Part shown: positions 1 to 27,751 of the stretch, in pieces
How the letters are laid out: each line of letters starts with the position of its first letter
Position numbering within the stretch: the stretch's first letter is position 1
Source: Shewanella acanthi
Lineage (GTDB): Bacteria; Pseudomonadota; Gammaproteobacteria; Enterobacterales; Shewanellaceae
DNA: 64,000 nucleotides
Reading direction: 5' to 3'
Assembly (NCBI RefSeq): GCF_019457475.1
Contig: NZ_CP080413.1
Span: forward strand, 2,232,001-2,296,000
Notes under the pieces: model-generated
Databases searched by the model: none
What the model was told of the DNA's origin: nothing
Seen by the model: only the letters and a program-made list of their open reading frames with translations
Program-made: the position numbers and the translations under genes

Positions 1-437
1 CCAGCCCACAGAGTCGCTTCAGGCGCAGACTCAAGCATACCTTTCGCCGTTACATTGAATTGTCTAAACGCAACATCACCTTTACTGGTATTTAAACCTG
101 GTTCCGATACGGACTGATAATCATTAAACTGAGCACCAGCATCTGTCTGGTAAGAAAGCATGGTGTTAACTTTTACTTGAACACCATTTTGATCAACGAC
201 CATTTTGTTTAAGCCTAATTCAGCATAAGTATCACACTCATCACCTAATCGTCCTGTATAATGGCCTTTGGCACCACTACCAAAACAGTATTGTTCACCA
301 CCTTTAGACGTTGTCGAAATACCAGCACGACCATAACCAGTGAATTCAAAACCAGAACTGATATTGGTATTTGCAAAACTAGTAGCAGAGTATCCAGAAA
401 GAGCTAAAACAACAGCATTACGAATAATATTTTTCAT
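1..437 (-). CDS. lamB: LamB-type maltoporin, 5' part only
   Basis: This reading frame starts with ATG at 437 and stays open to the left edge, so only about 145 N-terminal residues are visible. They begin with a signal peptide of about 22 residues ending in SFA, followed by a start of mature protein that resembles LamB: GFEFTGYGRAG, then GGEQYCFG, then GRLGDECDTYAELGL. E. coli LamB has closely similar segments there, including the cysteine pair. LamB proteins are outer-membrane trimeric beta-barrels that let maltodextrins and other sugars diffuse in. The gene follows the permease gene by 51 bases on the same strand and is probably the last gene of that operon. The sugar specificity cannot be told from this part. 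Confidence 0.85.
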   Translation of the reverse strand, partial: MKNIIRNAVVLALSGYSATSFANTNISSGFEFTGYGRAGISTTSKGGEQYCFGSGAKGHYTGRLGDECDTYAELGLNKMVVDQNGVQVKVNTMLSYQTDAGAQFNDYQSVSEPGLNTSKGDVAFRQFNVTAKGMLESAPEATLWA

Positions 438-488
438 ATATTTCCCCATCAACATAATTTATTAATTAGATTTATAATTTTTTACTTC

Positions 489-1757
489 TTATTTACTACT
501 CTCAATTTTTATAACCTTGCTTCCGTTAATTCCATAAAATGCAATATAGAGATAACAGATTAGAGGTAATAAAAATGATATTTGAACTCCAAATGCGTCT
601 GCTATAACCCCTTGGAGAACAGGAACGATTGCACCACCAACGATAGCTAAACAAAGTAAGCCAGACCCTTGTGATGTTAAGGACCCTAGATTGGCTAATG
701 CCAAGCTAAATATGGTCGGGAACATAATTGAATTACACAAACCAACAGATAGAACAGCCCACATTGCAACATCGCCTGATGAAGATATTGCAATAGATAG
801 CATTATTACTGATGCCAATGAATTAAAAGCTAATAACGAACCTGCACTGATTTTTTGCATTAAAGCAGCACCGATAAATCGACCAACCATTGCACCGCCC
901 CAATATATGGCGATGTAATTTGCAGCCTCACTCTCCTTTAATCCTGCGATATGTTCTTGACCTAAGAAGTTAATTAAGAAACTACCTATTGCTACCTCTG
1001 CACCTACATAGAGGAAAATGCCTAAAACTCCAAATTTTAGATTTCTCACCTTTAGAGCTTCAAAAAAGTGAGAAGACTCTACCGATTGAGATTTTTGAAT
1101 TTTAGGTAATTTAAGCCATGAAAATATAAATGCTAGCAATACTAAAGACGCTGAAAGGATTAAGTATGGCGTTTGCAGTGACTGAGCTTGAGACTCAGGG
1201 GACATTTCAGTGCCAGAACTAATAGCACTCAGAATTAATCCACCACCAATAATCGGCGCTAAAGTTGTACCTAATGAATTAAATGCTTGAGTTAAGTTCA
1301 ATCTACTTGCTGAAGTTTGAGCAGGTCCAATTAGTGTCACATATGGATTTGCCGCCACTTGGAGCATTGTAATGCCACTTGCAAGCACGAATAATGCTGC
1401 AAGAAATAACACATAAATATGCATCTCTGCGGCAGCAATCAAACTAAGGCAACCGACTGACGCTATCACCAATCCAATAACAATCCCTTTTTGATAGGAA
1501 TATTTCTCAACGAACTTTCCAGCAGGTATGGAAGTTAAAAAATACGACCCAAAAAAGCAAAACTGAATCAACATAGCTTGCGTGTATGTTAATTCAAAAA
1601 TTGATTTTAAGTGAGGGATTAAAATGTCATTTAAGCAAGTAATGAATCCCCACAGGAAAAATAACAATGTCATAGCACTTAGTGCCATGCTTGAGTTTTT
1701 CCCAGAATGAAATTCTTCATTTTTTGCGATACCAATGAATGGTTGATTCGTTGACAT
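489..1757 (-). CDS. FucP-type MFS sugar permease
   Basis: A 422-residue inner-membrane transporter with about twelve hydrophobic segments. The segments [19 protein letters not shown] and QVAANPYV are typical of the FucP/GluP branch of the major facilitator superfamily, which moves fucose, glucose, galactose or maltose with protons. It is clearly paralogous to the permease at 24572-25843, sharing long stretches such as [13 protein letters not shown]. The start codon directly abuts the stop codon of the lipoprotein gene (TAA then ATG), and a GGGAG ribosome site lies inside the upstream gene, so translation is probably coupled. Base composition is AT-rich compared with the paralogue, which suggests separate acquisition. 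The substrate is unknown; the following LamB gene favours an oligosaccharide. Confidence 0.88.
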   Translation of the reverse strand: MSTNQPFIGIAKNEEFHSGKNSSMALSAMTLLFFLWGFITCLNDILIPHLKSIFELTYTQAMLIQFCFFGSYFLTSIPAGKFVEKYSYQKGIVIGLVIASVGCLSLIAAAEMHIYVLFLAALFVLASGITMLQVAANPYVTLIGPAQTSASRLNLTQAFNSLGTTLAPIIGGGLILSAISSGTEMSPESQAQSLQTPYLILSASLVLLAFIFSWLKLPKIQKSQSVESSHFFEALKVRNLKFGVLGIFLYVGAEVAIGSFLINFLGQEHIAGLKESEAANYIAIYWGGAMVGRFIGAALMQKISAGSLLAFNSLASVIMLSIAISSSGDVAMWAVLSVGLCNSIMFPTIFSLALANLGSLTSQGSGLLCLAIVGGAIVPVLQGVIADAFGVQISFLLPLICYLYIAFYGINGSKVIKIESSK

Positions 1758-2369
1758 TTAATTACTCCCCATCTGAACGAAACTGACTTCTAAATTTCTT
1801 TCTTGGTTATATGCAATTAAATCAACCCCGTTAATACCTTCTTTATTAGTAGCAATAGTCAATGCCGTAAAACTTCCTTCATTTTCACAATTAGAAATCT
1901 GAAGGTCCCATATTTTCACATGGCCAAAGTGTTTAACCATTGAACCAAATGCATCACAACCACTCCAACTAGCCTTAAATTCCCCTTCATCTAATTCTAG
2001 AAACCCAGAATAACCTTCAGAGTGTGTTATTAAAGACTTCAAATGTTCTTGATTAAGAGCATGTACTTGACGGTCTATCTCATTAAACATTATTGAAAAG
2101 TTTTCACTACGATACCCTTGCCATTCTTCGCCAGATTTCCAATATATATTGGATAAACCAGTTTCATCATATGCAAGAATGTAGCTGCCACTTGCAGAAA
2201 AAAATGCATTAAAAGTTTTCTCAGAACCGGAAACGTTTGCAACTCCGTGATGAAAACCACTCGACAAATAGTCAACCGTCAAGTCATTATCTTTCTTGGG
2301 TTCAGAGGAGTAATCCTTATCGCATGCAGTTAGACTGCCCAATAAAAATAGGACTAATAGTTTTTTCAT
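1758..2369 (-). CDS. Putative lipoprotein of unknown function
   Basis: A 203-residue protein that I do not recognise. The N-terminus is a lipoprotein signal: a short basic start, a hydrophobic core and the lipobox LTAC with Cys16, followed by Asp, which in E. coli would favour inner-membrane retention. The mature part is polar with several aromatic residues (FHHGVANVSG, YWKSGEEWQGY) and looks like a beta-rich secreted domain. It sits 11 bases after the SurE-like gene and directly against the permease gene, so it is certainly in the same operon and probably acts in the periplasm with them, for example as a substrate-binding or chaperone partner. No function should be assigned from sequence alone. 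Confidence 0.75.
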   Translation of the reverse strand: MKKLLVLFLLGSLTACDKDYSSEPKKDNDLTVDYLSSGFHHGVANVSGSEKTFNAFFSASGSYILAYDETGLSNIYWKSGEEWQGYRSENFSIMFNEIDRQVHALNQEHLKSLITHSEGYSGFLELDEGEFKASWSGCDAFGSMVKHFGHVKIWDLQISNCENEGSFTALTIATNKEGINGVDLIAYNQERNLEVSFVQMGSN

Positions 2370-2380
2370 TATTTAGTCCC

Positions 2381-3415
2381 TTATTGATTTACTAAGTTTG
2401 ATAATTGATAACGTACTAAAGTTTGTTTACGTTCCTTGGCTGTATAATCAGCATCAATAATTGTAATTGTTGCATCAGCAGGCCCCTGCAGCATGCCTTG
2501 CATTGAAAGGAGGAATTGACTAAATGTGTATACCCCTTCTGACTCAGGGTTTTCATCAAAAGGCACATTAAAGCTTGCTGGACCAGCGAGGGGGGCTGGG
2601 AAGCCTTGTTTAGGGCTAGGAATAGCGATAAATGCACCTGGGATAGCGGGAAATTTGACAGGGATGATTGGGCTTTCAATAGTGCTCATGTCCTCGAAAA
2701 ATACAGGATAACCACCATAATGACCCATTTGGGTATATCTAAATCCGACTTGGCTACCTTGACCAGCGTCAAACTGTGGAATGTTTAAATTTACCCCAGT
2801 GTAATCTGGTAACAGTTTACTTTCGCTAAAAGGGTTAGCAACAAGCTGAGATACAACTTTTGCAGCGATACTTGCTACTTCAGGTGCCGTAACCTCATTA
2901 TCTTTCGTCGACTCTGCAGCACTTATAGCAAGAGTTGGAATATTTCGGTGCAACGCATTTGAAGCAGCACCCAAGGTACCTGACGCTAAAATCGTAACAC
3001 CAAAATTGAACCCTTCATTCGGTCCAGAAATCACTAAATCAGGAGATTTTCCCCATAATTTCCATGCTACAACATCTAAGCCATAAACCATTGATACAAC
3101 AGGCTTGCTGTTTACATAGCAAATATTTGGATCTGATTCTAGACATCCAAGACCCGAAACTCCTGCTTTGAGTGTGCCTTTAGGACTATCTTCAGTTGGA
3201 GTAGGAATAGGACCTGCGTGTAAAGCTCCCGCCTGACTACTTTGTGCTCCATAAGGAGCAGAAATAATAACTCTATGCCCGTCTTCTTTTAATTTTTTAT
3301 ATAAAGATTGAATATTAGGCGTTTCAAAACCGTCATCGTTAGTTATTAGAATATCAATCGCTTGAGATTGAAATGTTGTAACGAGCCCCAAGATAGCAAT
3401 CATGCGTGCGTTCAT
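2381..3415 (-). CDS. Secreted SurE-like phosphatase/nucleotidase
   Basis: A 344-residue protein with a signal peptide of about 19 residues ending in SQA, followed by a SurE domain. The metal-site signature ITNDDGF lies at about residues 24-30, the serine ligand is in the APYGAQSSQ segment, and SGPNEGFNFG supplies the conserved Asn and the glycine-rich loop. SurE proteins remove phosphate from nucleoside monophosphates and other phosphoesters using divalent metal. Classical bacterial SurE is cytoplasmic, about 250 residues long and encoded near pcm; this one is exported, about 90 residues longer, and heads a sugar-transport operon. The extra length is in the C-terminal half. It probably dephosphorylates an external substrate so that the product can be imported, but the substrate is not known. 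Confidence 0.82.
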   Translation of the reverse strand: MNARMIAILGLVTTFQSQAIDILITNDDGFETPNIQSLYKKLKEDGHRVIISAPYGAQSSQAGALHAGPIPTPTEDSPKGTLKAGVSGLGCLESDPNICYVNSKPVVSMVYGLDVVAWKLWGKSPDLVISGPNEGFNFGVTILASGTLGAASNALHRNIPTLAISAAESTKDNEVTAPEVASIAAKVVSQLVANPFSESKLLPDYTGVNLNIPQFDAGQGSQVGFRYTQMGHYGGYPVFFEDMSTIESPIIPVKFPAIPGAFIAIPSPKQGFPAPLAGPASFNVPFDENPESEGVYTFSQFLLSMQGMLQGPADATITIIDADYTAKERKQTLVRYQLSNLVNQ

Positions 3416-3530
3416 ATTATCCCCAATTATTATTATTAATAAACATCAAGGATTCTAAATAACATTGCTATTACACTGGCTATCCTACGAACATATACAG
3501 GCTATCATTTCACCTCAGATGAATTTTGGT

Positions 3531-4556
3531 TCATACTTTGTTCATAAAACGGTAGTCATTTGGGGTTTCGCCATACCATCGTTTAAAAGCTTTGTTAAAT
3601 GCAGTTACGTTTGTGTAACCGAGGACATCACTGATATTACTCACTTTCGCATTCGAATTTTTCAGAAGATTAGTGGCTTCAGTTTTACGAACTTGCTCCA
3701 ATATCATTGAAAATGAAGAGTTTTCTTTTGATAGCATCCTTTGCAAACTTGCTCGACTGGTATTGAGATGGTAGGCAATCGTATTGATATCTAGATCGGT
3801 ATCAGCCTGTTTAATCTTTCGTTCAAGAATTAATTTAACTTCACCGCAAATGGAGGACTGCTGTTCCAGTTCAAGCAATGCAACATCACCTAATTTGTTG
3901 GTGAAAGTGTAAATTCTGGGATTATGATTGGGGTTTGGTGCGTTGAGTAAATTAACATCAAACTTGAGTGCTGATTTTACTTGGTTAAATCGCCAAAAAT
4001 CACCACAATGGATATTGAAGTTTTTTTCATCTTGAATGCTTCGGCTATAAAATAAAAACTCTGGTGTAAACTCAATATTAGGGAAGTTATCTTTTATTAA
4101 TTTTGACAACCCAAATAAAGCTCCTTGAGAAGTATTGAAATCTCGTTCTTTTGTTGTAAATTCATGGGTCAAATAGGCATATTTACCCACAATTTCCAAA
4201 TCTACTCTCCAGCAACGCCATACGTTCTGGAACCTGCAAAGAAATAATAAAAACTCCTGCAAATTTTTAGTATTCATCAAAGCATTGAATGGATTCACAA
4301 TCAGCGAGTTAGTTGGCGTTGATTGCATAATTTTATTGAGGTAGATGAGTTCTCGATTATGGTAATAACCCTGTTCACTTAGAAGATGGTACAAACGTAG
4401 TACACTATCATCATTTGGATAGAAGCTATTTAAGTTATTGTTAATCCAAGAACTGTTAATTTTCGTTGCTTGATAGATTTCAGTTTTAGAGGCGCCCAGT
4501 CGTTCTGCAAGTTGGAATCCCAACTCAACCATATGACTAACATAATGACCAGACAT
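3531..4556 (-). CDS. AraC-family transcriptional regulator
   Basis: A 341-residue regulator. The first 200 residues form an OruR/ArgR-type arabinose-binding-like domain and the last 100 form two helix-turn-helix motifs of the AraC type: INTIAYHLNTSRASLQRML, then the signature NISDVLGYTNVTAFNKAFKRWYG ending in PNDYR. It lies upstream of the surE-like operon in the same direction, with a 115-base gap at 3416-3530 where the operon promoter should be. It most likely activates that operon in response to its substrate. The adjacent position and the shared AT-rich composition support this; no operator could be defined by eye. Confidence 0.9.
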   Translation of the reverse strand: MSGHYVSHMVELGFQLAERLGASKTEIYQATKINSSWINNNLNSFYPNDDSVLRLYHLLSEQGYYHNRELIYLNKIMQSTPTNSLIVNPFNALMNTKNLQEFLLFLCRFQNVWRCWRVDLEIVGKYAYLTHEFTTKERDFNTSQGALFGLSKLIKDNFPNIEFTPEFLFYSRSIQDEKNFNIHCGDFWRFNQVKSALKFDVNLLNAPNPNHNPRIYTFTNKLGDVALLELEQQSSICGEVKLILERKIKQADTDLDINTIAYHLNTSRASLQRMLSKENSSFSMILEQVRKTEATNLLKNSNAKVSNISDVLGYTNVTAFNKAFKRWYGETPNDYRFMNKV

Positions 4557-4845: not shown

Positions 4846-5763
4846 CTACCGTCCCCAGAGCCATGCCGCTCCGCGTACGCCTGATGAACAACCAAATTTA
4901 TTCTGAACAACAAGTGTGTTGCACTCCCTTCCAACAACATATTTGTTTAACAATGCTGGCAGTCTTGGATAAATCGCTTCGACGTTAGACATACCACCAC
5001 CGAGCACAATTGCATCGGGGTCAAGCATATTGACAACGTGGGCAAGTGAACGAGCTAGTCTGTCCATATAGATATCGAATGCCTTGATAGCAATCGAATC
5101 GCCTGCCTCGACTAAAGCCATGATCTCGTGGCCAGCTTTGACAGGCTCACGGTCAACAGTTAATTCCGCTAAAGCTGAATTGTAGTCCCGCACAAAGCCA
5201 GTGCCGGAAATAAAGGTTTCGATACAATCCGGATTACCGCAGAAACAGCGGGTGCTATTAAATTCATCCTTCGTCATCCAAGGCAAAGGATTATGACCCC
5301 ATTCCCCACCAATTCCATTACCACCCGAATGTACGTTTCCATTTACTGCAACACCAGCACCACATCCGGTACCAATGATGGCCCCGAATACAACCCTTTT
5401 ACCAGCAGCTGCGCCATCCACAGCCTCAGACACCGCAAAGCAGTTAGCATCATTGGCAACGCGCACTTCGCGATTAAGTCGTTCTCCTAGGTCCACATCA
5501 AGGGGATGGCCGTTTATCCAAGTTGAATTTGCGTTTTTAACCAAACCAGTGAAGGGCGAAATTACTCCAGGTATACCGACTCCAACTGTCCCCTTTTCAC
5601 CTAATGTGACTTCAGCTTCTTTCACTAATCCAACAACTGCCTGTAGAGTACCTTCATACTCACGAGGGGTTGGAACTCGCTTACGAAACAGTTCGATACC
5701 TTCTTCGTTCAGTGCAACCAATTCAATTTTAGTGCCACCTAAATCAACTCCCATACGTAACAT
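4846..5763 (-). CDS. mak: Fructokinase Mak (ROK family)
   Basis: A 305-residue cytoplasmic sugar kinase, closely similar to E. coli Mak (YajF) along its whole length. The ATP-binding DLGGTK motif is at residues 7-12, the catalytic Asp is in ANDANC (D105), and the ROK zinc site is H157 with C173, C175 and C180 in [10 protein letters not shown]. It phosphorylates fructose, and more slowly mannose, at C6. The start at 5763 has a GGGAG ribosome site about nine bases upstream; a start three codons later is possible. Its composition is nearer to the backbone than to the AT-rich operon on its left. It stands alone on its strand, with a 14-base palindrome about 70 bases upstream that may be an operator. 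Confidence 0.93.
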
Positions 5764-6193: not shown

Positions 6194-6583
6194 TCAAATC
6201 AAGAAATCTTCAATTGAACGACCGCTCTCAACTTGTTGCTTGAAAACTGTTGGCATTCTACCCTGCCCTGTCCAAGTTACGGTTTCGCCCTCAACAACGA
6301 TTGAGTATTTTGCTGGACGAGGTGCACGAGTGCTTTTTACTTTAGCTGCCACGCCACCTAAATCATCAATGGACAAACCCGCCGATTCCATCATTTTATG
6401 AAGCTCTGCAATTTTAGCGATGCGCTCAGCATTCGCTTCAGCTTCTGCCCTCGCTTCTTCTTCTCTTTCTGCAACTATTTTACCGAGCTTCTCGTATACA
6501 TCTTTGAGTTCTGCAACTGATAAGTCTTTAACAGAAGCTTTAAGACGACGAGCATGGGTTAAAATCTCTAAAAATTCAGACAT
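6194..6583 (-). CDS. hns: Nucleoid-associated protein H-NS
   Basis: A 129-residue H-NS. Residues 1-65 are mostly helical and charged and form the oligomerisation region, with a long Glu/Ala coiled coil (about 36-60). The C-terminal DNA-binding domain has WTGQGRMP at residues 104-111; E. coli H-NS has the equivalent WTGQGRTP, whose QGR loop inserts into the AT-rich minor groove. H-NS compacts DNA and silences AT-rich, often foreign, genes. Here it lies beside AT-rich DNA that it would be expected to bind. Its upstream region is only 96 bases before the end of the neighbouring integrase gene, so its promoter is squeezed against a mobile element. It has its own terminator. Confidence 0.95.
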   Translation of the reverse strand: MSEFLEILTHARRLKASVKDLSVAELKDVYEKLGKIVAEREEEARAEAEANAERIAKIAELHKMMESAGLSIDDLGGVAAKVKSTRAPRPAKYSIVVEGETVTWTGQGRMPTVFKQQVESGRSIEDFLI

Positions 6584-6679: not shown

Positions 6680-7969
6680 TTAGAATGTAAAGGCTTTTTC
6701 GGCCATATCCAAAATACTATTCTTCTGCGTGGGCAGCCATTTTCCATAGTGTTTTTCAATCATCTTGATACTAGTATGTCCCATTTGCCTCGCAACCCAA
6801 GTGAGCGGTAAACCCGCGGAGATTAAGTGGGATGCAAAAGTATGTCGGGTTTGGCCTGGTCCTCGAAATCGTATTTGTGCATTCTTTAAATGGGTTAAGT
6901 AAAATCGCTGCCTAAGGTGCACATCTGATGTGTACGCCTTATTGGTTTGAGTATTAATAAACACAAAATGGATTGTCTGACTCTCTATCGACTTATTGTC
7001 TTCACGCAGCACCTTGACCGTCTCGGATCGTGATTTAGCAATATCACGCTGCTTTAAGAGGATCGCTTTAGCCTGAGGCAATAACTCAATCTGTCGATTA
7101 CTCGAATGATTTTTGGGTTTCTTATAGATACCTTCAACCACCGCACGCGATATATAAATAGCATTGTTATCAAAATCAATATCTTCCCAGGCAAGCGCCA
7201 TAAGCTCGCTTACTCGAAGTCCCATAAAGCAATTGCAAACAATCATATTGACCTCCGATTGTCTATCCGTAGGCATGGAAGCAAATTTGGCAATCTCTTC
7301 TGCTGAAAAGGGATCTGGCTCCTGCAACAATACCTTTAGGTTCGTCACCTTAGAGGCCTTGAGTTTATCCAATGGATTTATCGCAAGAGTTTCATCGAGA
7401 ATGGCAAAGGTAAATATCTGATTTAAAATACTTAAAATTTCTTTAATCGTTTTATTGCTTAAATAAGACAGTTTGGTATTCATCCAAGCTTCGATATCGG
7501 AGGGTTTAATGGTATCAATAGCGACATTAGCAAAACGTGGACCGATATGGGTCGAGATCTTGTTTTGATAGTTTTTCAAAGTACATGGTGCCAACTTATT
7601 TCGTTTCGCATTCAAAAAAGAGTCAATGTAATGTCCAACGTACAAAGGCTGATTTTTTGCTACCTCTAATTTTGACTCAATCATTGATTCGGGTGAATCA
7701 AGCTTATGGTTTGTATGAATAAAATGTTGACCGCCAATACGTTTCAGAAATTGCTCAGGATTATACTTAGCTAACATTTTAAGCTCATTCACAATGTCAG
7801 CAGCCTGTAACAACCCTTGCTCTGTGCATTCAATTCCATCTAATGCCATACGATAAAGTTTTGACTTGTGTTTCATAATCATTCGGACACTAGTGTTCGA
7901 ACGAATTTCGAGATATTTAAGCTTTCTTTGCTTACAAAACGATTTTGCTTCTTCCACTGACATTAACAT
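6680..7969 (-). CDS. Tyrosine recombinase (phage-type integrase) 1
   Basis: A 429-residue integrase. The N-terminal 75 residues look like an arm-type DNA-binding domain, residues 105-200 a SAM-like core-binding domain, and the rest the catalytic domain. The catalytic features are the first Arg in CFMGLRVSELMALAWEDID, the second Arg in GQTRHTFASHL where the usual HxLR histidine is replaced by Gly, the histidine in MGHTSI, and the nucleophile Tyr in EKHYGKW. It is homologous to the divergent recombinase at 8495-9778, sharing LRxSELMxLAWEDIDF and RHTFASxLISAG. Its 3' end faces hns. It appears complete and could be active in integration or excision of a small element. Confidence 0.9.
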   Translation of the reverse strand: MLMSVEEAKSFCKQRKLKYLEIRSNTSVRMIMKHKSKLYRMALDGIECTEQGLLQAADIVNELKMLAKYNPEQFLKRIGGQHFIHTNHKLDSPESMIESKLEVAKNQPLYVGHYIDSFLNAKRNKLAPCTLKNYQNKISTHIGPRFANVAIDTIKPSDIEAWMNTKLSYLSNKTIKEILSILNQIFTFAILDETLAINPLDKLKASKVTNLKVLLQEPDPFSAEEIAKFASMPTDRQSEVNMIVCNCFMGLRVSELMALAWEDIDFDNNAIYISRAVVEGIYKKPKNHSSNRQIELLPQAKAILLKQRDIAKSRSETVKVLREDNKSIESQTIHFVFINTQTNKAYTSDVHLRQRFYLTHLKNAQIRFRGPGQTRHTFASHLISAGLPLTWVARQMGHTSIKMIEKHYGKWLPTQKNSILDMAEKAFTF

Positions 7970-8300: not shown

Positions 8301-8498
8301 ATGACACATAAACATAACATCGGATGGGTAACTGCAAGCGTGTTAGTGAAGCTTAAAGGCTTTACGGAAGACGCACTCAAAAGTAAGAGACGTCGCGAAG
8401 TATTCACTCGCGATGTGCACTACAAAAAATTTGACGGTGCGATTATGTACAACTATGAAGCAATCGATGCATTGATCGCTGGGAGTCAATCTAATTGA
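8301..8498 (+). CDS. Excisionase-like small DNA-binding protein
   Basis: A 65-residue basic protein with the pattern GWVTASVLVKLKGFTEDALKSKR, followed by a VHYKKFDG segment and a tyrosine-rich end. This matches the winged-helix excisionase family (DUF1233-like), in which the first helix pair reads a recombination site next to the integrase gene. The start ATG has a GAGGA ribosome site. Its stop codon overlaps the TTG start of the following integrase in the bases TTGA, so the two are translationally coupled. It would bend DNA and steer the recombinase towards excision, and may also regulate the divergent promoter. Confidence 0.78.
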   Translation: MTHKHNIGWVTASVLVKLKGFTEDALKSKRRREVFTRDVHYKKFDGAIMYNYEAIDALIAGSQSN

Positions 8499-9778
8499 AT
8501 CCATTGCCTGAGCTTGATGAAATTTTAACTCCTGAAAAAGCTAAAGTATTAGCTAGAGAATTGCGTGTAAAGCACATTGAAGTTCACGGGAAATCATTAC
8601 GTGTAATCTTTAAAAAAGATCGCAAGTTAGTTAAAGAAAAACTGAATATTTCTCTAACTCTGCGCAATATTCTTGCATTAAATGATATTGTAAAAAAATG
8701 GAAAACATTACCGGAGGTCGAAATCAGAAAATCTGCGGCGCTTTTTAACAAAAAGGGGTTTAATGCTAATCCTAATTTGAACACGTTTATTGAGAAGTTT
8801 CGTAAATATTACTTTGACGGGTTAGCTCTATCAACAAAAGGTGGCTATAACGCTCATCTGGAGCGTATTGCTGAAAAATTCGGTAACGTAAACATCAATG
8901 AAATTCGAGCTGATGATGTTAAAGACTTCAAATTAGCGTTGAGATTAAAATTTTCAGGGAAAACAACTAACGAAACGATAAGATTACTAAAACGATTATT
9001 TGACATTGCTGTTGAAGATAATGTGATTAATAAAGTTCCATTTAATCACCATCTCATAAAATCTAAGTCGAATAAAAAGTCTCCACTAACTGAAAGTGAT
9101 TTGTTCACAAAAGAAGATCTATTTTCCATTGGAAATAACATACCGTTAAATCCGCCTATTGCATTGTTAATTCTACTAAATTGTTGTATTGGTTTAAGAT
9201 TTTCAGAGCTAATGGGGCTTGCTTGGGAAGACATTGATTTTAATAATCGAATTATTCATGTGAAAAGAGCGATTGTTAATCGTCAAATTAAATCTTTAAA
9301 AGTTGGAAGTTGTAATTATCGACAAGTTGATATTTTAGATCCTGCATTTGATTTATTAATTGAAATGAAGAACCATTTTTTCCATCAATCAAAATTACAA
9401 ACGATTCAAAAACTCAATAGTGATAATAAAACTTTTCAAAAAGAAAGAGTACGATTCGTTTTGCAATGCATGGGAACTAACAATACAAACCATTTTGAGC
9501 AAATTTTCAGACGAAAAACTAACCAATTCTTACAAGATTGTCAGATCAAGCAGAAAACACCGGGACATTGTCGACACACTTTCGCTTCAAATTTGATCAG
9601 CGCGGGGGCAAAAATCGATTATATTTCTATTCAACTAGGGCATTCTAGCGTTAAAACAACTGAAAAATTTTATTATATTTTCATTAGTAAGCTCAATAAA
9701 GCTGTTCGCGATCAAGCATCGCAAGCATTAGCATCTTTTTTCCCAAACATTTCATCATTACATGCTATTGCTGCTTAA
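8495..9778 (+). CDS. Tyrosine recombinase (phage-type integrase) 2
   Basis: A 427-residue integrase starting at TTG, which overlaps the excisionase stop by four bases. It has the same layout as the divergent recombinase at 6680-7969: arm-binding N-terminus, SAM-like core-binding domain at about 95-185, catalytic domain from about 200. The catalytic features are Arg in CIGLRFSELMGLAWEDID, PGHCRHTFASNL with the second Arg, LGHSSV, and Tyr in EKFYYIF. Its coding sequence is very AT-rich; one line counted by hand (8761-8820) has 18 G or C in 60 bases. This is unlike the backbone and points to foreign origin. A strong terminator follows. Confidence 0.9.
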   Translation: MNPLPELDEILTPEKAKVLARELRVKHIEVHGKSLRVIFKKDRKLVKEKLNISLTLRNILALNDIVKKWKTLPEVEIRKSAALFNKKGFNANPNLNTFIEKFRKYYFDGLALSTKGGYNAHLERIAEKFGNVNINEIRADDVKDFKLALRLKFSGKTTNETIRLLKRLFDIAVEDNVINKVPFNHHLIKSKSNKKSPLTESDLFTKEDLFSIGNNIPLNPPIALLILLNCCIGLRFSELMGLAWEDIDFNNRIIHVKRAIVNRQIKSLKVGSCNYRQVDILDPAFDLLIEMKNHFFHQSKLQTIQKLNSDNKTFQKERVRFVLQCMGTNNTNHFEQIFRRKTNQFLQDCQIKQKTPGHCRHTFASNLISAGAKIDYISIQLGHSSVKTTEKFYYIFISKLNKAVRDQASQALASFFPNISSLHAIAA

Positions 9779-10070: not shown

Positions 10071-11129
10071 GGCTTTGTTTCCAAAATCGGTTGAACTCAT
10101 TTCGAAGCCGATGATCAGATCGGCATCATTTACTGACTTACCTTATAACTGTGCCTAAACCCTTCTACCAAACGACCAACTGGAAACAATACAACAAAGC
10201 TTTAATCAACCGAGGTTCACTTACCTTTTGGATTGATGAAGAAGCTATCGCCAGTTGGCAAGCTAAAGCTGAGCAAGGTAAGAAAGGTCGTCCACGGTTG
10301 TTTAGTGATTTGTCCATCACCACCGCGCTTATGGTTAAGCGCATTTTCGCCATGCCTCTGCGAGCGTTACAAGGCTTTATTAATTCAGTATTTCAGCTGG
10401 CTCAGGTGCCACTGGTCTGCCCGCATTACACTTGTATCAGCAAACGTGCGAAGACTGTCAACATTGCCTTTAAAACCAAAACGCGTGGTGCCATTACCCA
10501 CTTAGCGATTGATGCTACGGGACTTAAAGTCTATGGCGAAGGGGAATGGAAAGTGAAGAAGCATGGTACAGACGGTAAACGCCGAGTTTGGCGTAAACTG
10601 CATATCGCCGTTGATACTCACTCACACGAGATTATCGCGGCGGAGCTCAGTTTATCGAATGTCACTGATGCTGAAGTGTTACCCAATTTACTCAAACAAA
10701 CTCAACGTAAAATCCACACCATTTCAGGTGATGGTGCCTATGACACGCGTGAGTGCCACGAAGCTATCCGGCGTAAACAGGCATTTACCTTAATCCCGCC
10801 CCGTGAAGGCGCGGCATACTGGGAGCAAGGGCATCCGCGTAATCTCGCAGTGAGTTTTCAGAAGCTTTATGGTTCCAATAAGAAATGGAAGCAGCGCTAT
10901 GGCTATCACCGCCGCTCCATCTCAGAAACGGCCATGTATCGAATAAAGCAGCTGCTGGGTGGCCGTTTGAGTATGCGAAATTACAACGCTCAGGTGGGCG
11001 AAACTTACGCCATGATCAAAGCGCTGAATAAACTCACAGGGCTAGGTATGCCTGAAACTCACTATGTAGTTTGATATTTAACCAATTAAGAGGGAATTTG
11101 TGCCGACATTCGATTTGGGAAACAAAGCC
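10071..11129 (+). mobile_element. Complete IS5-family insertion sequence (IS903-like branch)
   Basis: The element is 1059 bp long. Its left end GGCTTTGTTTCCAAAATCG and the inverted right end GGCTTTGTTTCCCAAATCG match at 18 of 19 positions, and one transposase gene fills most of the interior. Perfect 9-bp target duplications flank it. Intact ends, an intact gene and an unchanged duplication together suggest a recent insertion and probable mobility. I cannot name the element without a comparison to the IS collections. Confidence 0.93.
10151..11074 (+). CDS. IS5-family DDE transposase
   Basis: A 307-residue transposase starting at GTG, inside the insertion sequence. The DDE catalytic triad is visible: Asp in LAIDATGLKVYG, Asp in SGDGAYDT, and Glu in the IS4/IS5 signature Y-2-R-3-E-6-K, read here in the segment YHRRSISETAMYRIK. 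It cuts and rejoins the element ends. It appears full length with no frameshift. Codon use and base composition are closer to the host backbone than to the AT-rich integrases on its left, so the insertion sequence is likely a later arrival. Confidence 0.95.
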   Translation: MPKPFYQTTNWKQYNKALINRGSLTFWIDEEAIASWQAKAEQGKKGRPRLFSDLSITTALMVKRIFAMPLRALQGFINSVFQLAQVPLVCPHYTCISKRAKTVNIAFKTKTRGAITHLAIDATGLKVYGEGEWKVKKHGTDGKRRVWRKLHIAVDTHSHEIIAAELSLSNVTDAEVLPNLLKQTQRKIHTISGDGAYDTRECHEAIRRKQAFTLIPPREGAAYWEQGHPRNLAVSFQKLYGSNKKWKQRYGYHRRSISETAMYRIKQLLGGRLSMRNYNAQVGETYAMIKALNKLTGLGMPETHYVV

Positions 11130-11265: not shown

Positions 11266-11353
11266 TGGCGGTGAGAGAGGGAGTCGAACCCTCGATACGT
11301 TTCCGTATACACACTTTCCAGGCGTGCTCCTTCGGCCACTCGGACATCTCACC
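11266..11353 (-). tRNA. tRNA-Ser (anticodon GGA)
   Basis: The minus strand reads as an 88-base class II tRNA with encoded CCA. It begins GGTGAGATGTCC and ends CTCTCTCACCGCCA, so the acceptor arms pair. The long variable arm is typical of serine tRNAs, the anticodon loop is CTGGAAA with GGA, and the T-arm has GGTTCGACTCC. It is very similar to E. coli tRNA-Ser(GGA). It lies at one edge of the mobile-DNA zone, a common place for integration. Confidence 0.96.
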
Positions 11354-24546: not shown

Positions 24547-24576
24547 GCTACAGCTACAGCTACAGCTACAGCTACA
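24547..24576. repeat. Hexanucleotide tandem repeat (GCTACA)5
   Basis: Five perfect copies of GCTACA in a row. The stop codon of the permease gene (24574-24572, minus strand) lies in the last copy. Because each unit carries TAG in the permease frame, a change in copy number would not alter the protein, so it is probably neutral slippage. Confidence 0.9.
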
Positions 24577-25843
24577 TTTTTGAGCCTTTAGCGCCGTAGA
24601 ACATAATAAAGCAGTAGCAAATGACTGGGAGGAAGAAGGCTAATTGGATACCTAAGTTATCCGCTAGCACGCCCTGTAGCAATGGCACAATCGCACCGCC
24701 CACAATCGCCAGACACAACACGCCGCTGCCCTGTGATGTGTGAGGGCCTAAGTCACGCAGCGCTAAGCTGAAAATAGTTGGGAACATAATCGAGTTAAAT
24801 AGTCCCACACCTAGGATTGCCCACATGGCCACACTGCCGCTAGTCGTCATGGCAACAACGACCAGTAACGCCGCCATAAAGGCGTTGAAGGCCAGCACTG
24901 TGCCCGCAGGGATTTTTTGCATCACCGCAGAACCAATGAAGCGTCCCACCATCGCGCCGCCCCAATAATAGGCGATGTAATGGGCCGCTTGCTCCTCTGG
25001 CATGCCGACAATGTGTGACTCACCGAGGAAGTTGACTAAGAAGCTACCAATGGACACTTCAGCGCCCACGTACACGAAAATGCCCACGGCGCCTAACACT
25101 AAGTGAATGCTTTGCAGTGCGCTGGTTTTACCCATATGGGTCTGCACTTCGCCAGGTGCGGCTTCGGTGTGCTCACTGATAGTCGGCAAATCAAGCTTGG
25201 CAAAAATAACCGCTAACACCGCGAGTGCCCCTGCGAGCATCAGATAAGGCAGCTTTACCACTTCCGCTTCAGCGCTCGCCTTCGCCATTTCTGAAGAAAC
25301 GGTCGCAGCCACCGAAAGAATTAACATAGACCCAAAGAATGGTGCCACCGTTGTACCCAGTGCGTTGAAGGCTTGGGTCAGGTTTAAACGGCTTGAAGCG
25401 GTTTCGCTGCTACCTAAAGCGTTAACGTATGGGTTAGCGGCCACCTGTAAAATGGTGATACCCGATGCAAGCACAAACAGCGCCGCAAGGAATAGACCAT
25501 AAACTGCAAAGGATGCGGCAGGGTAAAACATCGCACAGCCAAAGCTTGCGATCACTAAACCTGTGACGATACCTTTTTGATAACCGAGCTTCTTAACTAA
25601 TTGACCCGCTGGAATCGACACCAAAAAGTAAGCGCCGAAGAAGCAGAACTGGATCAGCATTGCTTGGGTATAGTTAAGGGAGAAAACCGCCTTTAAGTGC
25701 GGAATAAGAATGTCGTTTAAGCAGGTGATAAAACCCCACATAAAAAACAGTGAAGTCAGAGATACCAGCGCAAAGCGATAACTTCCGCCCTGTGCAGTAT
25801 TAGCCCCATTCGTCTGACTGCTGGTATTGATCATTGACGCCAT
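24572..25843 (-). CDS. FucP-type MFS permease of the maltodextrin locus
   Basis: A 423-residue inner-membrane sugar/proton symporter with twelve hydrophobic segments. It contains the FucP-branch motifs [19 protein letters not shown] and QVAANPYV. The gene lies 273 bases downstream of the alpha-glucosidase on the same strand, so maltose or short maltodextrins are the likely substrate, as proposed for similarly placed Shewanella permeases. It is paralogous to the permease at 489-1757 but has the base composition of the backbone. Its own promoter probably lies at 25844-26000. A terminator follows. Confidence 0.9.
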
Positions 25844-26116: not shown

Positions 26117-27751
26117 TTATTTCAACATCGCATAGTAACTGGCATGGGCAGATAGTTTTAAGGTTGTCCCCTCCAATGTCGCGGTCTTTAAACCATGGCC
26201 AGTCAGTTCACGGCCTATCGCAAGGCTCGATAAATCAAGCTCAGCGTCATCTTCCTTAAGGTTAAAGCACACTAAGACTTTTTCATCGCCTAAGCTACGC
26301 ACAAAAGCCAGAAGTGGCTCAGGTGCATCGATAAATTGAATGTCACCAACAACCAATACTGGGTGCGTCTTACGCCAGTTTAAGAACTGACGATACCCAT
26401 TAAGGCTGGAATGGGCGTCCGCCTCCTGCACATCCACTGCGGCCGCTAAGTGTGCGTTAGCAACGGGCAGCCAAGGCGCATTGTGGGTAAAGCCTGCAAA
26501 GGGGGCATCTTTTTCCCAAGGCATTGGAGTGCGGCACCCATCACGCCCTTTAAACATTGGCCAGAAGGTTTTGCCAAAGGGATCCTGCAATTCATGGAAC
26601 TCAATTGGCGCTTCGGTCAAGCCTAACTCTTCACCTTGGTAGCTGCACACGCTGCCGCGCAGTGAACACAGCATAGCATTGAGCATTTTCACCATATCGG
26701 TGTTTTGTGTGCCCGAAGTGCTGGCTTTACCCCAACGGCTCGCCACACGCTGCGCATCGTGGTTACCAATCGCCCAACATGGCCAACCATCACCAATACT
26801 GGCTTCAAGTTCTTCAACGGTTTGACGGATATAAGCCGCGCTGTAGTCATTAGTCAACAGCTCGAAGCTGTAAGCCATGTGCAGGCGCCCTTCGCCCTTA
26901 GTGTAAGCCGCCATCACAGCCAATGAGTCCTCAGCGGAGACTTCGCCTAGGGTTACCGCACCAGGGTATTTGTTGATCAGTGCGCGCAAGTCTTCAATAA
27001 ATTCGATGGTCTGCGGTCTGTCATTGTTGTAGTAGTGGTACTGGTAGGCGTAGGGGTTATCCTCGCTAAAGCCACGGCCCTGGCGTTTGTCCTTAGGTTT
27101 AGCAGGATTATCACGCAGCTGCTCATCGTGGTAACAGAAGGTGATCGCATCAAGGCGGAAACCATCAACGCCCTTCTTGAGCCAAAACTCGACGTTATCG
27201 AGCACGGCTTGACGGACTTCAGGATTATGGAAGTTCACATCTGGCTGACTACGCAGAAAGTTATGTAAGTAGTACTGTTGACGGCGAGGTTCCCACTCCC
27301 AAGCACAACCACCAAAAATCGCTAACCAGTTGTTAGGCGCTGTGCCGTCTTCCTTAGGATCGGCCCACACATACCAGTCGGCCTTAGGGTTAGTTCTGCT
27401 CTCGCGGCTCTCAATAAACCACGCATGTTGGTCAGACGTATGGCTAAGCACCTGATCGATAATGACCTTAATGCCACGTGCGTGGGCCTTTTCAATCAGC
27501 TCATCAAAGTCATTCATGGTACCAAAGAGGGGGTCCACTTCGCGGTAGTCACTGATATCGTATCCAAAGTCCGCCATGGGGGATTTAAAGAAAGGGGAAA
27601 TCCAAATGGCGTCCACATTCAGGCTGGCAATGTAGTCTAACTTACTGATAATGCCGCGCAGATCGCCTACGCCATCACCATTGGTATCTAATAGGCTACG
27701 CGGATAAATTTGATAAATGACCGCGCCTCGCCACCAAGTTAAGTTACTCAT
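26117..27751 (-). CDS. GH13 alpha-glucosidase (cytoplasmic)
   Basis: A 544-residue glycoside hydrolase of family 13 that releases glucose from maltose and maltodextrins. The nucleophile is D201 in GVDGFRLDAIT, the acid/base E270 in TLGEVSAED, and the third carboxylate D332 in GNHDAQR. The N-terminal YQIYPRSL with the calcium-type loop NGDGVGD is typical of the alpha-1,4-glucosidase and oligo-1,6-glucosidase branch. No signal peptide is seen, so it should be cytoplasmic and act on imported sugar. It is divergent from the TonB-receptor gene, with two palindromic operators between. The permease gene follows. Confidence 0.93.
   Translation of the reverse strand: MSNLTWWRGAVIYQIYPRSLLDTNGDGVGDLRGIISKLDYIASLNVDAIWISPFFKSPMADFGYDISDYREVDPLFGTMNDFDELIEKAHARGIKVIIDQVLSHTSDQHAWFIESRESRTNPKADWYVWADPKEDGTAPNNWLAIFGGCAWEWEPRRQQYYLHNFLRSQPDVNFHNPEVRQAVLDNVEFWLKKGVDGFRLDAITFCYHDEQLRDNPAKPKDKRQGRGFSEDNPYAYQYHYYNNDRPQTIEFIEDLRALINKYPGAVTLGEVSAEDSLAVMAAYTKGEGRLHMAYSFELLTNDYSAAYIRQTVEELEASIGDGWPCWAIGNHDAQRVASRWGKASTSGTQNTDMVKMLNAMLCSLRGSVCSYQGEELGLTEAPIEFHELQDPFGKTFWPMFKGRDGCRTPMPWEKDAPFAGFTHNAPWLPVANAHLAAAVDVQEADAHSSLNGYRQFLNWRKTHPVLVVGDIQFIDAPEPLLAFVRSLGDEKVLVCFNLKEDDAELDLSSLAIGRELTGHGLKTATLEGTTLKLSAHASYYAMLK

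Follow-up and report, generated by a model that had tools for sequence, protein, structure and literature searches.

The stretch of DNA analysed here, a 64-kb window (positions 2232001–2296000 of the 4.13-Mb single-contig Shewanella acanthi genome), opens inside a string of minus-strand genes for an AraC-family regulator, a secreted SurE-family protein, a lipoprotein, a major facilitator superfamily (MFS) permease and a LamB-family porin (Table 1). The four genes behind the regulator were separated by 11 (SurE–lipoprotein), 0 (lipoprotein–permease) and 51 bases (permease–LamB; 33 if LamB starts at 455 and not, as is more likely, at 437, a start with a ribosome-binding site). This layout, like the presence of a secreted SurE-type protein, a permease and a porin, agrees with a first-pass annotation of the same DNA, which had also taken the four genes for a complete uptake system. 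They are not the whole operon, because the window's left edge cuts it: the rest of LamB and genes for a GH1 beta-glucosidase and a 6-phosphogluconate dehydrogenase (gnd) lie beyond, as does a carboxylesterase gene. These were read in segment L004 (genome 2220001–2240000; window coordinate = L004 coordinate − 12000). GH1, gnd and a sugar kinase had thus been missing from the list.

A regulator-led gene string on a genomic island

Beyond LamB, the GH1 gene follows after 27 bases, gnd after a further 221–222 and the esterase after another 512. Just 3′ of gnd lies a 12-pair hairpin trailed by eight T (L004:7528–7499), the sole strong terminator-like hairpin. Judged from the gene spacing and this hairpin, the operon most likely comprises SurE, lipoprotein, permease, LamB and GH1, perhaps with gnd, and the string from SurE through GH1 would be co-transcribed. 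As predicted sigma-70 sites were no commoner than in shuffled sequence (42 versus 41.3), we claim no promoter.

The string sits on a 22.0-kb island bounded by two copies of the tRNA-Ser(GGA) 3′ end, and the 20-base core of this repeat occurs exactly twice in the genome. With border repeats of a tRNA 3′ end, integrases inside and a GH1 cargo gene that was not found in 116 other Shewanella genomes, the element has the features of a tRNA-associated island. Its GC content was 39.8%, whereas 190 kb sampled outside it had 47.1%, in line with the AT-rich composition noted earlier. GC content at third codon positions (GC3) of the SurE, lipoprotein, permease, LamB, GH1, AraC and esterase genes lay below the value of every one of the 93 core genes sampled; gnd, unlike the rest of the cargo, resembled core DNA. 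The tRNA-Ser repeats, the two integrases, the low GC3 and the absence of the GH1 gene from congeners together make horizontal transfer, which had been suspected from composition, well supported. Also within the island, the stretch from the second integrase to tRNA-Ser(GGA) holds a DDE transposase gene (window 10151–11074).

Table 1 Features of the island (window coordinates unless prefixed L004)
Feature	Coordinates	Strand	Evidence or remark
Secreted SurE-family protein, putative phosphatase	2381..3415	-	PF01975, 124.4 bits (cut-off 22.1)
SurE-associated lipoprotein, no named family	1758..2369	-	lipobox LTAC
MFS glucose/galactose permease, GlcP/GluP type	489..1757	-	PF07690; TIGR01272 gluP, 374.5 bits (cut-off 202.55)
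LamB-family porin, N-terminal part	1..437	-	whole gene L004:11118-12455, 445 aa; PF02264, 276 bits for whole protein
GH1 beta-glucosidase	L004:9405-11090	-	lipobox; PF00232, 422 bits
6-Phosphogluconate dehydrogenase (gnd)	L004:7657-9183	-	second gnd copy in genome
Carboxylesterase	L004:5426-7144	-	lipobox; same strand, beyond gnd
AraC-family regulator	3531..4556	-	PF12833 (HTH); 41% identical to AraC before LamB–GH1 pair in G376 (L145)
ROK sugar kinase (fructokinase/glucokinase type)	4846..5763	-	NF007108, 527 bits (cut-off 443)
H-NS-family protein	6194..6583	-	PF22470, PF00816
Tyrosine integrase 1	6680..7969	-	PF00589, PF14659
Tyrosine integrase 2	8495..9778	+	PF00589
Right direct repeat TGGCGGTGAGAGAGGGAGTCGAACCCT	11266..11292	.	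within 3′ end of tRNA-Ser(GGA), 11266-11353, minus
Left direct repeat, 27 bases	L004:1265-1291	.	second copy of tRNA-Ser(GGA) 3′ end

Permease, porin and glycosidase

The permease had been called FucP-type. It passes the gluP subfamily model but stays below the cut-off of the fucP equivalog TIGR00885 (266.2 bits versus 280.4), and its closest relatives, Shewanella glucose permeases and proteins of other genera, are 60–64% identical to it. Most of these relatives lie within beta-glucoside loci, where genes for a LacI-type regulator, a GPH transporter and a cytoplasmic GH1 enzyme run divergently from them and genes for large secreted glycosidases adjoin them (neighbours named from their sequences and from published loci). 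In a reconstruction of Shewanella sugar catabolism, such permeases are GlcP and accompany secreted glucosidases and a ROK glucokinase (PMC2996990).

The GH1 lipoprotein carries the acid/base motif TFNEP, the nucleophile motif SENG and the glycone motif NFEW. The last of these is a mark of ordinary, non-phospho GH1 beta-glucosidases, and by its motifs the enzyme is of the non-phospho type; free glucose would therefore be a more natural permease substrate than a phosphorylated sugar. The solved structures nearest to the island LamB are maltoporins. The porin is notable in this genus: of the 117 Shewanella genomes searched, just 7 have a LamB scoring above the Pfam cut-off. In four other Shewanella genomes with LamB, neither SurE, GlcP nor GH1 adjoined it. 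A second GlcP-type permease, adjoining an alpha-glucosidase-like gene, lies elsewhere in the window (24572–25843 and 26117–27751), and this pair is possibly the maltodextrin locus known for Shewanella.

Two central-metabolism genes accompany the string. The ROK kinase gene, upstream of the regulator, is the third copy in the genome (the others are 84% and 68% identical), and the island gnd is 94.5% identical to its counterpart elsewhere in the genome.

Taken with the kinase and gnd, the porin, the exported beta-glucosidase and the glucose permease make up a coherent route from glucosides to central metabolism. The substrate, the direction of flux and the part played by SurE and the lipoprotein are inferred. 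Our favoured interpretation, at a probability of about 0.6, is an AraC-controlled island operon for the use of beta-glucosides as a glucose source, into which a SurE–lipoprotein module has been recruited. The LamB-type porin would let glucosides pass the outer membrane; the GH1 lipoprotein, periplasmic or exposed on the cell surface, would split off glucose, which the GlcP/GluP permease would import and the ROK kinase would phosphorylate, with the extra 6-phosphogluconate dehydrogenase supporting pentose-phosphate flux. SurE and the lipoprotein, recruited between regulator and permease, would most likely dephosphorylate phosphorylated glucosides or sugar phosphates, providing free sugar for cleavage or import. 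If so, a mobile island here carries a pathway for obtaining glucose from glucosides, equipped with a porin of its own and with additional kinase and gnd copies.

Several observations weigh against this interpretation. The specificities of LamB and GH1 are not readable from sequence; gnd, given the 222-base gap that separates it from GH1 and its core-like composition, may be a separate insertion; and the carboxylesterase lies behind the hairpin, 512 bases from gnd.

Searches in other genomes divide the operon into parts. At E ≤ 1e-80, the GH1 lipoprotein was found among 394 genomes of the order only in the host and in one other genome, G376, at three loci (L143, L144 and L145), each time directly behind a LamB gene; at E ≤ 1e-100 the host alone had it among 369 genomes of the class, and a search of the family to which G376 belongs found none in 23 further genomes. 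At L145 the LamB–GH1 pair is preceded by the related AraC regulator and followed by a GPH transporter. Since the trio recurs there, AraC–LamB–GH1 is probably an older unit. The same locus has, downstream on the opposite strand, a PhoD-like phosphatase gene (G376:C275, 6869–8749), possibly a second phosphatase near a glucoside locus and possibly there by chance. Among the genomes searched, a SurE–lipoprotein pair with GlcP between AraC and LamB occurred in the host only, so that a check named beforehand, recurrence of the four-gene order elsewhere, came out negative. The earlier remark that no described pathway has this gene set agrees with our literature search, in which no such set was found.

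SurE and its lipoprotein partner

SurE of the E. coli type is an intracellular nucleotidase. The island protein carries a signal peptide (...SQA-IDILITNDD) and, aligned with the genome's own canonical SurE, keeps the metal-site residues D27, D28, S59/S60 and N133; because these metal-binding residues are kept, a phosphatase role is plausible. It scored 106 bits against the TIGR00087 equivalog cut-off of 135.1 and is placed here as a superfamily member, not filed as the equivalog. Among secreted SurE relatives (80 loci listed, one genome per species, from a total of at least 80), SurE nowhere had this permease or GH1 as a neighbour; the sole LamB lay about 3 kb from SurE on the opposite strand (L060). 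Nowhere else in the genomes searched did SurE directly adjoin this permease, LamB or GH1. At one locus (L013:1447–3620, genome G060) a secreted SurE is followed by a NamZ-type exo-beta-N-acetylmuramidase gene in place of the lipoprotein.

The lipoprotein had no Pfam or NCBIfam match. A lipoprotein of the same family nevertheless stands directly 3′ of SurE in 39 of the 80 loci, and the host genome has a second such pair (L005). When 35 lipoproteins encoded next to SurE, the window protein not among them, were made into a profile and this was run against 191 open reading frames (ORFs), the host paralogue ranked first (1e-52) and the window lipoprotein second (E = 1.3e-5), ahead of all others, of which the esterase came next at 0.002. 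Three cysteines are invariant in the 35 family members, and the window lipoprotein has all three. Long ORFs at L041 and L116 had looked like SurE–lipoprotein fusions, a candidate dropped because SurE lies there in another frame.

Structure models of the two host lipoproteins differed in reliability. The paralogue was modelled as all-beta, with one 4-residue helix and two successive domains, or twin barrels, at a predicted local distance difference test (pLDDT) score of 90.5; the window lipoprotein was nearly all-beta, at a pLDDT of only 68. The window model had no match in the PDB, and the paralogue model none in Foldseek, at E ≤ 0.001. VIA-align matched the paralogue mostly with small beta-barrels (surface lipoproteins and others; Z about 8–11, one barrel per match), a likeness that may be merely a common arrangement.

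These data bear on the view proposed in the first-pass annotation, in which the operon is dedicated to scavenging phosphorylated sugars or sugar nucleotides: SurE would be the central enzyme, transport would fall to LamB and the permease, and the lipoprotein would bind the substrate. SurE is secreted, has kept its metal-binding residues and immediately follows the regulator in the string, and SurE enzymes are broad phosphatases on nucleotides and polyphosphate, those known being intracellular 5′/3′-nucleotidases and polyphosphatases (PMC8475336). The operon, however, also encodes a GH1 of the non-phospho type, and LamB–GH1 with this type of AraC occurs in G376 without SurE. Nor does the lipoprotein behave like a binding protein dedicated to uptake: it follows SurE in many genomes without these transporters alongside, and a solute-binding protein would be expected to have an alpha/beta fold, at odds with the all-beta paralogue model and, with the caution that its pLDDT demands, with the window model. 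We consider scavenging of this kind improbable, and our guess is that the lipoprotein may anchor, chaperone or regulate SurE. Instead of the scavenging of phosphorylated sugars, we would read the operon as glucoside catabolism carried by an island, to which a putative phosphatase module has been added.

How closely that module is tied to the glucosides can be argued both ways. SurE–lipoprotein pairs occur in gamma- and betaproteobacteria in many unrelated contexts without these transporters alongside, and with the second copy in the same genome this suggests that the pair might be a passenger: a periplasmic phosphatase module of general function, lying in a glucoside operon without a metabolic link to it. 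Against such a passenger speak its tight packing between regulator and permease, with a 0-base gap to the latter, and the low GC3 that it shares with both; we hold this alternative to be unlikely, if the one to be taken most seriously. If the pair is metabolically linked, dephosphorylation of sugar phosphates or phosphorylated glucosides would best fit the company that SurE keeps in the operon. A more specific version has phosphorylated, perhaps acylated, glucosides processed outside the cytoplasm by SurE and the esterase, the twin-barrel lipoprotein anchoring or regulating SurE and GH1 freeing the glucose; to us this is a rather doubtful scheme.

The only conserved neighbours of SurE pairs that might hint at a substrate were two genes, present at part of the loci, which precede the pair in about ten genomes of Vibrio, Photobacterium, Pseudoalteromonas, Colwellia and others (L043:7897–9888, L077:7603–9832 and L071:1589–3543, also L062, L064, L070 and L080). 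Their products, of about 240–325 and 340–424 amino acids, each begin with a hydrophobic stretch, and no Pfam match was found in the members scanned. The recurrent partnership of an exported SurE with this unnamed lipoprotein, which the island brings to light, is the most interesting loose end of the analysis.

Comparison with known systems

An exported SurE with a lipoprotein of some 210–235 amino acids encoded directly behind it is found, for example, in Shewanella benthica, Vibrio furnissii, Pseudoalteromonas haloplanktis and Aliivibrio fischeri. The secreted SurE of another Shewanella genome, G058, appears to be that of Shewanella benthica DSM 8812, since L011 and L073 show the same sequence. 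The island pair has the same arrangement but is divergent, its SurE showing at most 44% identity in the best segment, and, unlike the island, those pairs have none of this operon's porin, permease or glycosidase alongside. The three LamB–GH1 loci of G376 share with the island the order LamB then GH1 lipoprotein, with GH1 proteins 42–53% identical, whereas they lack SurE, its lipoprotein partner and GlcP.

The nearest described pathway is Bgl of Shewanella (Rodionov et al. 2010, PMC2996990), and the host genome also has a Bgl-type locus (L156). Like Bgl, the island has a glucose permease of the GGP family, a ROK-type sugar kinase and a beta-glucosidase predicted to act outside the cytoplasm and release glucose there, here with the GH1 lipoprotein and GlcP in one string. 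It differs in having a LamB porin where Bgl has a TonB-dependent receptor, and an AraC regulator where Bgl has the LacI-type BglR; its operon is without BglT and the cytoplasmic BglA, adds SurE, the lipoprotein and gnd, and is island-borne. As far as its genes tell, the island operon would work like Bgl, yet we do not file it as Bgl because AraC and LamB take the corresponding places and BglT is absent from the operon. The parts are known, and their combination is new.

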